A stretch of 64,000 bases of DNA, taken from positions 1 to 64,000 of the forward strand of contig CANQVK010000015.1 in NCBI GenBank assembly GCA_947627275.1, given 5' to 3'. The stretch's first letter is position 1. Each line of letters begins with the position of its first letter. The DNA comes from an uncultured Ruminococcus sp. (lineage in GTDB: Bacteria; Bacillota; Clostridia; Oscillospirales; Ruminococcaceae). The position numbers and the translations under genes were made by a program. Shown one piece after another: positions 8,391 to 8,584 of this stretch. A model generated the notes under the pieces. It saw only the letters and a program-made list of their open reading frames with translations, was not told where the DNA came from and searched no databases.

Positions 8391-8584
8391 AGATTTTGTT
8401 TCTCTATATTTCTTGTCAGAGAGGTAACTCTTAGAACCCAATATCGTAAATGGAACTGTAAAAAGCACGTAATTATTATAGGTTAAAAATTATACAGAAA
8501 GCTTTTTACAGTTCCATTTACGACAACAGAGATGCCAAAGGGGTCACCCCTTTGGCAGGGGGTGCAGGGGGACAGAGTCCCCCG
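8391..8584 (+). repeat. Family C intergenic element, copy 1 (inside atp operon)
   Basis: It begins AGATTTTGTT and contains a perfect 23-bp stem (8444-8466 with 8501-8523, 34-nt loop), then CCAAAGGGG-tca-CCCCTTTGG (8535-8555), then GGGGGAC-aga-GTCCCCC (8567-8583). The same order recurs at 39498-39648 and 58251-58440. The element points against the direction of atp transcription. Confidence 0.85.

Follow-up and report, generated by a model that had tools for sequence, protein, structure and literature searches.

A dispersed, putatively IS4-related element of Ruminococcus keeps a hairpin paired while its arms change sequence

We describe a dispersed element of about 190-240 bp that has relatives across the genus Ruminococcus, is present in tens to more than 100 copies per genome in two sister species, and keeps a long hairpin stem paired while the sequence of both arms changes. 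With a probability of roughly 0.6, we favour an account in which the element belongs to the IS4-family MITEs and has a structured core, its hairpins are exchanged between copies, and changes confined to one arm are removed or mended. The exchange would proceed by gene conversion between dispersed copies through the conserved segments on either side of the hairpin, in which case both arms would change at once. Selection on the plus strand in its folded form, perhaps as a transcript, would remove or repair one-arm changes, and occasional template switching between the arms might also repair them.

Copies in the window

The window, the whole stretch of 64,000 nucleotides analysed from the draft genome of an uncultured Ruminococcus sp. 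(the source genome), contains three copies of the element on the plus strand. A sequence-only reading of this DNA had described three elements with two constant hairpins, and all three were found where it had placed them. The 8.4-kb copy (8366..8606) is flanked by the genes for ATP synthase beta (6934-8331) and gamma (8609-9517) and runs antisense to the two. Its ends, of a type other than the consensus ends, form an imperfect inverted pair at 8366-8390 and 8582-8606, so that the element is longer than the interval 8391..8584 first given as its extent. Both ends are retained at the matching site in the closest relative, where the core is gone and another repeat lies inside. The copy includes a small hairpin, P2 (GAGAG-GTAA-CTCTT, 14 nt as folded, 8419..8432, located by RNA folding), the variable stem P3 (5' arm 8444..8466 and 3' arm 8501..8523, located by sequence, stem scoring and folding) and two constant hairpins, P4 (CCAAAGGGGTCACCCCTTTGG, 8535..8555, an exact match) and P5 (GGGGGACAGAGTCCCCC, 8567..8583, a pattern match). 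The P3 arms, TCGTAAATGGAACTGTAAAAAGC and GCTTTTTACAGTTCCATTTACGA, form 23 of 23 pairs, 22 of them scored and the 23rd read from the sequence.

The 39.5-kb copy (39481..39665, with the left end CAATGTATACAACTTAAG at 39481) lies between a peptidase M16 gene (38198-39472) and lgt (39689-40798), on the same strand as both. Its variable hairpin (39551..39588) is short and of subtype A; the arms TCGTAACATTCTGCTCC and GGGGCAGAATGTTACGA form 17 pairs, namely 14 consecutive Watson-Crick pairs, one T-G pair and two more Watson-Crick pairs. P4 and P5 occupy 39600-39620 and 39631-39647. The 58.3-kb copy (58251..58445), antisense to the genes on either side, consists of the core with unrecognisable ends, and has a variable hairpin of subtype B (58303..58379, 21 of 22 pairs by stem scoring), P4 at 58391-58411 and P5 at 58423-58439. 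These values bear out the earlier description of the first long stem as perfect or nearly so. The statement that the stem is always closed by TCGTAA/TTACGA is true of the window copies but not of the genome as a whole, where the closing sequences are mostly TCGT.../...ACGA, with variants and exceptions. P4 is exact in all three copies, and 100 shuffled versions of the window gave no match to it; GGGGGACAGMGTCCCCC is likewise found in all three. The minus strand carries a shortened relative (23261..23351) with both ends and P5 retained and the variable stem and P4 absent, and a fragment (52064..52100) with the right end and a P5-like hairpin.

RNA folding of 8391-8584 gave z = -9.3 for the plus strand and -10.1 for the minus strand, and none of 200 shuffles was equally stable on either strand. 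At curated scores, Rfam had no match in the window and only tRNA in the loci of 16 relatives. At a loose E-value the matches were weak and far under the curated scores, with microRNA families and Clostridiales-2 (19.5 and 18.7 bits) among them, and three loci had no match up to an E-value of 0.5.

Several other repeats share the window. A second dispersed repeat of 164 nt, at 12119-12282 and 41652-41815 (98% alike), has inverted ends TTAGACCTCCTCGGAAACTAA. A third occurs at 41914-42075 and 46174-46333, and by eye a copy of it lies in the variable-hairpin loop of locus L023. A further repeat forms an inverted pair at 36649-36836 and 49814-50000 (about 90% alike), and the CAACTTAAG end at 49802 suggests that it may have the same kind of ends. 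Positions 1-360 are three tandem units of 120 nt, the later two being 98% and 66% like the first.

Family size and spread among genomes

The 2.44-Mb source genome contains 55 exact occurrences of P4, and 59 copies with at most one change in P4 were extracted from it, of which 55 were kept after removal of four at contig ends. The resulting alignment has 54 rows, L023 being left out because another repeat interrupts its loop. Setting aside 13 short A/A' stems together with L030, L044, L049, L053 and L055 gave the 36-row alignment on which a covariance model was built. Searched against the source genome, the model found three further full-length copies (C1:114405, C14:44226 and C12:61367); the next matches, opposite strands of known copies aside, reached at most 34 bits. 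Sorted by eye, the stems fall into the discrete types A, A', B, C and D.

Comparison of the ATP synthase gamma protein places Ruminococcus MAGs and R. flavefaciens nearest, with a top identity of 97%. Matches to the model at E 0.01 or better, often several, were found in 47 of 80 genus genomes, the copy numbers per genome in this search being lower bounds. The sister genome has at least 126 matches over 100 bits; 110 fetched loci yielded 116 copies with at most four changes in the 29 bases round P4, after removal of identical copies. This assembly is partly duplicated, L355 and L356 being an identical stretch. P4 is the same in both species and exact in 115 of the 116 sister copies, while flanks differ by 7%, which implies either strong selection on each copy or homogenisation by conversion; most likely, conversion and selection act together. 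The exact constant hairpin was absent from the 118 other genomes searched, and the exact 29-base core had no match among the viral contigs searched.

In the genus-mates L065, L066, L072, L103 and L104, the constant hairpins are followed by another hairpin, whose arms vary round loops resembling GCGNAGC; variation of this kind therefore affects more than one stem of the family. L064 and L068, from other genus genomes, represent a different element, whose stem (TAATTTCAGCCCCATAGGGTRCACAT, about 24 bp) is perfect and whose loop varies.

Pairing of the variable stem

A covariation test of the variable stem with a covariance model had been proposed in the sequence-only reading, and covariation is what we found. 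Among the 36 long-stem copies, 17 of the 23 pairs are changed on both sides and 97.3% of cells are paired; in the test, which covered four helices, none of 500 shuffles reached any of five measures. When the partner was slid out of register, pairing in these copies fell from 96% to 34-52%. The constant hairpins hardly vary and therefore say nothing for or against structure. Covariation thus goes beyond both the shuffles and the slid controls, but the same signature can also arise by gene conversion and template switching.

The stem, whose failure to pair in a larger set would have told against the earlier claim, pairs there too. Over 169 copies of the two species (L023 and L044 left out), 77 stems have no mismatch (35 of 53 in the source genome, 42 of 116 in the sister), 85 have one (15 and 70) and seven have two or three (3 and 4). 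Cell counts over these copies are 3467 Watson-Crick, 80 G-T, 53 A-C and 48 other. The hairpins of a third species also pair, with 473 Watson-Crick, 14 G-T, 5 A-C and 1 other in 28 copies (29 loci, one off-target row removed); these stems were chosen by a best-stem search, in which the median score was 17 against 6.1 for shuffles (maximum 11.9). In that species, 16 of 18 comparable inner arms are distinct, with a mean identity of 49%, and the 22 nt after the stem are 82% identical. One mismatch appears to be tolerated, since 70 of the 116 sister copies have exactly one and a single A-C mismatch, which sits in 21 sister copies, is shared by 21 of 65 B-type copies.

Pairwise distances among the 65 B-type copies gave an arm-arm correlation of 0.33 and an arm-loop correlation of 0.01, so the arms are coupled by pairing and not by mere linkage, with the proviso that a star-like history would likewise give low correlations elsewhere in the element. 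The expectation that decayed ends go with decayed stems was contradicted: stem mismatches showed no link to the state of the ends (rho -0.18, p 0.27 in 40 source-genome copies; rho 0.05, p 0.63 in 115 sister copies). Mismatch-free stems made up 12 of 24 in the source genome against 7 of 11 in copies with degenerate or other ends, and 29 of 74 against 5 of 19 in the sister. Pairing is therefore kept not only for mobility.

Insertions shared by two species

Twelve insertions are common to the source and sister species, 11 of them recognised by both flanks. The hairpin type is kept in eight and replaced by a different type in four. At the eight same-type insertions, 155 of 176 base pairs are unchanged; seven differ on both sides and eight on one side with pairing in both species, while pairing in one species only is seen at five pairs that differ on one side and one that differs on both. 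Random placement of an equal number of changes gave a mean of 0.55 two-sided paired differences and a maximum of 5 in 20000 trials, against the seven observed. Between species, the arms differ at 29 of 352 sites (8.2%), the loops at 28 of 235 (11.9%) and the flanks at 462 of 6573 (7.0%, flanks below 80% identity excluded). The arms therefore change at about the pace of their surroundings, yet they pair.

Among the four replaced hairpins, L024/L342 shows an internal swap that is clean: the difference is confined to the interval from the hairpin up to and including P5, the right end and flanks agree, and the left 75 nt are mutual nearest neighbours among 170 copies. The pairs L033/L328 and L028/L339 differ in the left segment as well as in hairpin type, and L053/L348, also of different hairpin types, match by one flank only; these three may be independent insertions instead of swaps. 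When the segments of 11 shared insertions were ranked by edit distance against 170 copies, the ortholog was nearest or tied for the left segment in 14 of 22 queries, for the right segment in 16 of 22 and for the hairpin in 6 of 22. Two further pairs, L045 of the source genome with L257 of the sister and L021 with L316, match by one flank and carry the element in opposite sense, either through inversion in place or through separate insertion.

Another kind of change was seen in L007, where the loop is inverted between perfect arms, the only such case in 155 loops. Its edit distance to another loop is 4 when reverse-complemented and 16 when read forward, and at least 12 in 300 shuffles. Template switching or recombination between the arms would produce such a loop. 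Selection for structure and a rewriting of both arms together were the two alternatives offered at the outset, and each has support: paired changes occur in place, and there are also events in which both arms are replaced together. Separately, P5 is replaced by a longer hairpin set, GTGACTCCC...GGGGCGRTWAGCCAGAGTCCCC, in L018, L030, L037, L047 and L049 of the source genome and L339 and L342 of the sister; this set is a separate exchangeable module.

Ends, target duplications and a partner insertion sequence

CACTRTCYRCAACTTAAG and its complement delimit the best copies. A target duplication was found in 18 of 55 testable copies, in 15 of them of exactly 10 bp, compared with 219 of 20000 random flank pairs. 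The length between recognisable ends, 181-332 nt, is too short for a transposase. A genus-mate carries an intact insertion sequence of 1.41 kb, L206, with the same 17-nt ends and an exact 10-bp duplication (GATGCTAAAC); CACTATCCACAACTTAA is found at each end of L206, as it is in the best copies. Its transposase of 445 aa scores above the cut-off of NCBI's IS4 model and has the motif Y-(2)-R-(3)-E-(6)-K (YREK). Relatives of this transposase (E 1e-10) were found in 5 of 100 genus genomes, and a protein search found none in the source draft genome; it is usual for the partner of a MITE to be lost, or missing from a draft. The sole PF01609 gene of the source genome was considered as a partner and rejected, as it looks like a split ISAs1 gene without these ends. 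Judged by these sequence features, the element is probably a non-autonomous MITE of the IS4 family. One source-genome insertion, L035, is absent at the matching place in the sister genome, where the local DNA has diverged and hence offers no letter-perfect empty site.

Both ends are of the CACTRTCYRCAACTTAAG type in 27 of the 55 source-genome copies and 41 of the 116 sister copies, and copies with two ends of a longer, second type number 3 and 16. A single end of one or the other type is present in 14 and 29 copies, and 11 and 30 have neither of the end types looked for. The same core is thus carried by ends of different kinds. The CACTRTCYRCAACTTA end has 136 matches with at most one change genome-wide, which exceeds the need of 59 elements; as several pairs of these matches lie 30-400 bp apart, other small elements use such ends.

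Folded strand and gene context

If the plus strand folds, G-T is expected to be tolerated more than A-C. Distinct contexts in the two species number 37 for G-T and 19 for A-C (p = 0.011), and the third species has 14 and 5. This excess may hint at a folded plus strand, perhaps a transcript; it is suggestive only, because one A-C mismatch occurs in 21 sister copies and both strands fold about equally. P2 capped by a GNRA loop is present in about 30% of the 171 copies, against 0.5% in shuffles and 0 on the minus strand, and counts as a hint only because the copies share ancestry.

With the longest open frames nearby taken as genes, 52 of the 55 source-genome copies could be classified, leaving three unclassified: 24 antisense and 16 sense in tandem gaps, nine in convergent gaps and three in divergent ones. 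Elements are often close after stop codons. In 4 of the 63 related loci read, the ATP synthase gap holds hairpins resembling the element, in both orientations, which speaks against a terminator or promoter. Our best guess is that the folded strand acts in cis, in the mRNA that holds it, on processing or stability.

Alternative explanations

Counting against the favoured account of exchanged hairpins are the absence of the L206 transposase from the source draft genome, the fact that L024/L342 is cleaner than the other three swaps, the low correlation between segments, which a star-like history could explain as well as exchange, the tolerance of one mismatch and the similar fold energies of the two strands. 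Plain compensatory evolution, in which each copy is a selected structured RNA whose stem is broken by one mutation and restored by another, with swaps as a side process, is a serious possibility, though we lean against it. It accommodates the two-sided paired differences in place at shared insertions, the excess of G-T over A-C, the contrast between arm-arm and arm-loop correlations in B-type copies (0.33 and 0.01) and the GNRA-capped P2 on the plus strand only. It sits less well with arms that evolve no more slowly than flanks (8.2% and 7.0%), with the B-type copies, where, counting distinct pair alleles, seven two-sided changes cannot pass via G-T and five can, and with the tandem sites, half of which are antisense to genes, so that plus-strand transcription is not required there. 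Rewriting in the absence of selection, by template switching or palindrome correction that copies arm onto arm and leaves pairing as a by-product of replication or repair, seems rather unlikely to us. The inverted loop of L007 between perfect arms and two-sided changes at a roughly neutral pace are what it would produce, and parts of PMC8794818 argue for such a mechanism in RNA hairpins; however, only one loop in 155 is inverted, the G-T excess is not predicted, and at shared sites single-sided differences are as common as double ones (13 and 8 pairs). A more speculative idea, which we put forward tentatively and regard as doubtful, is that the hairpin is an active recombination module. The extruded stem would be cut or would stall replication, and either another copy or its own opposite arm would serve to refill it; hairpins would then circulate as cassettes while insertions stay, with the P4 palindrome anchoring the exchange. 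If this were true, the family would offer a natural system of many copies where a single event rewrites both arms of a stem.

The remaining explanations have much less to recommend them. Discrete stem types would fit subfamilies inherited from active sources, with stems that arose long ago, spread by transposition and received no upkeep after insertion, but that is very unlikely in view of the two-sided paired differences at eight shared insertions, stems that are not poorer where the ends are degenerate or of another type, and a P4 exact in 115 of 116 sister copies despite the 7% difference in flanks. We find it no more credible that the elements are intrinsic transcription terminators dispersed after genes. 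The frequent position just after stop codons agrees with this, as do the terminator-like sites in 8200-8800, three where 0.6 are expected, of which one is the minus-strand P4 with a weak score and a weak T-rich tail. Yet the variable stem is followed by no T-run on either strand, the 8.4-kb copy lies inside the ATP synthase operon, with relatives in that gap in both orientations, and antisense copies outnumber sense ones in tandem gaps (24 and 16 of 52 classified). Finally, a REPIN, whose single-stranded DNA is mobilised by a RAYT (Y1) transposase, would share the compensatory hairpin changes reported for REPINs in PMC3116915, but it is almost certainly the wrong description, given DDE-type ends, 10-bp duplications and the absence of PF01797 (Y1 transposase) from the source and sister draft genomes in a search that was positive in 5 of 14 control genomes.

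Comparison with known systems

The IS231 subgroup of the IS4 family is listed in Table 1 of PMC2266710 with ends CAT-------AA--TAA--- and duplications of 10-12 bp. The ends of the Ruminococcus element share seven of the eight fixed bases, the third base being C and not T, and duplications of about 10 bp are common to both; the L206 partner transposase is placed in the IS4 family only. The IS231-related mobile insertion cassettes, MIC231, are non-autonomous and carry genes as cargo, whereas the Ruminococcus element has a structured non-coding core.

REPINs and REPs resemble the element as dispersed extragenic hairpins with compensatory stem changes. Gene conversion of REPs was reportedly proposed by Higgins and co-workers in 1988. 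The Ruminococcus element differs from them in its DDE-type ends, 10-bp duplications, several hairpins and swaps at orthologous insertions, and REPINs and REPs are associated with RAYTs, whereas the source and sister genomes have no Y1 transposase. In the excerpts available, compensatory changes are described among REPIN copies (PMC3116915), and GTAG and CGTC repeats have alternative complementary stems with G-T pairs (PMC3116915, PMC3733652).

Correia/NEMIS, ERIC and other bacterial MITEs are, like the present element, small and non-autonomous, lie in gaps between genes and can be parts of mRNAs; Correia transcripts are cut by RNase III (searched text of PMC10969869, which mentions neither Ruminococcus nor compensation nor gene conversion). 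Among known ways of keeping hairpins, template switching has been argued to maintain those of RNAs, and active maintenance is described for long inverted repeats in nematodes (parts of PMC8794818 and PMC1803023, respectively). As far as these excerpts go, structure is kept under change there as here, with both arms altered in one event; they concern RNA genes and long nematode repeats, whereas the present case is a multicopy bacterial element. The ends and partners of Correia/NEMIS and ERIC are other than those of the Ruminococcus element. No earlier description of these elements was found in the literature searched, the scope of which excluded most subscription papers. The phenomenon thus has relatives, while the family itself, the IS4-type ends and the swapping at shared insertions appear to be new.

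Significance

It is an old question whether perfect stems survive by slow compensatory selection or by one-event rewriting of both arms. With 171 copies, two close species and twelve shared insertions, counting can tell selection from rewriting, and the family is a natural test bed for how hairpin stems stay intact. It also cautions against taking covariation between dispersed repeats as proof of a functional RNA, because gene conversion and template switching can have the same result.
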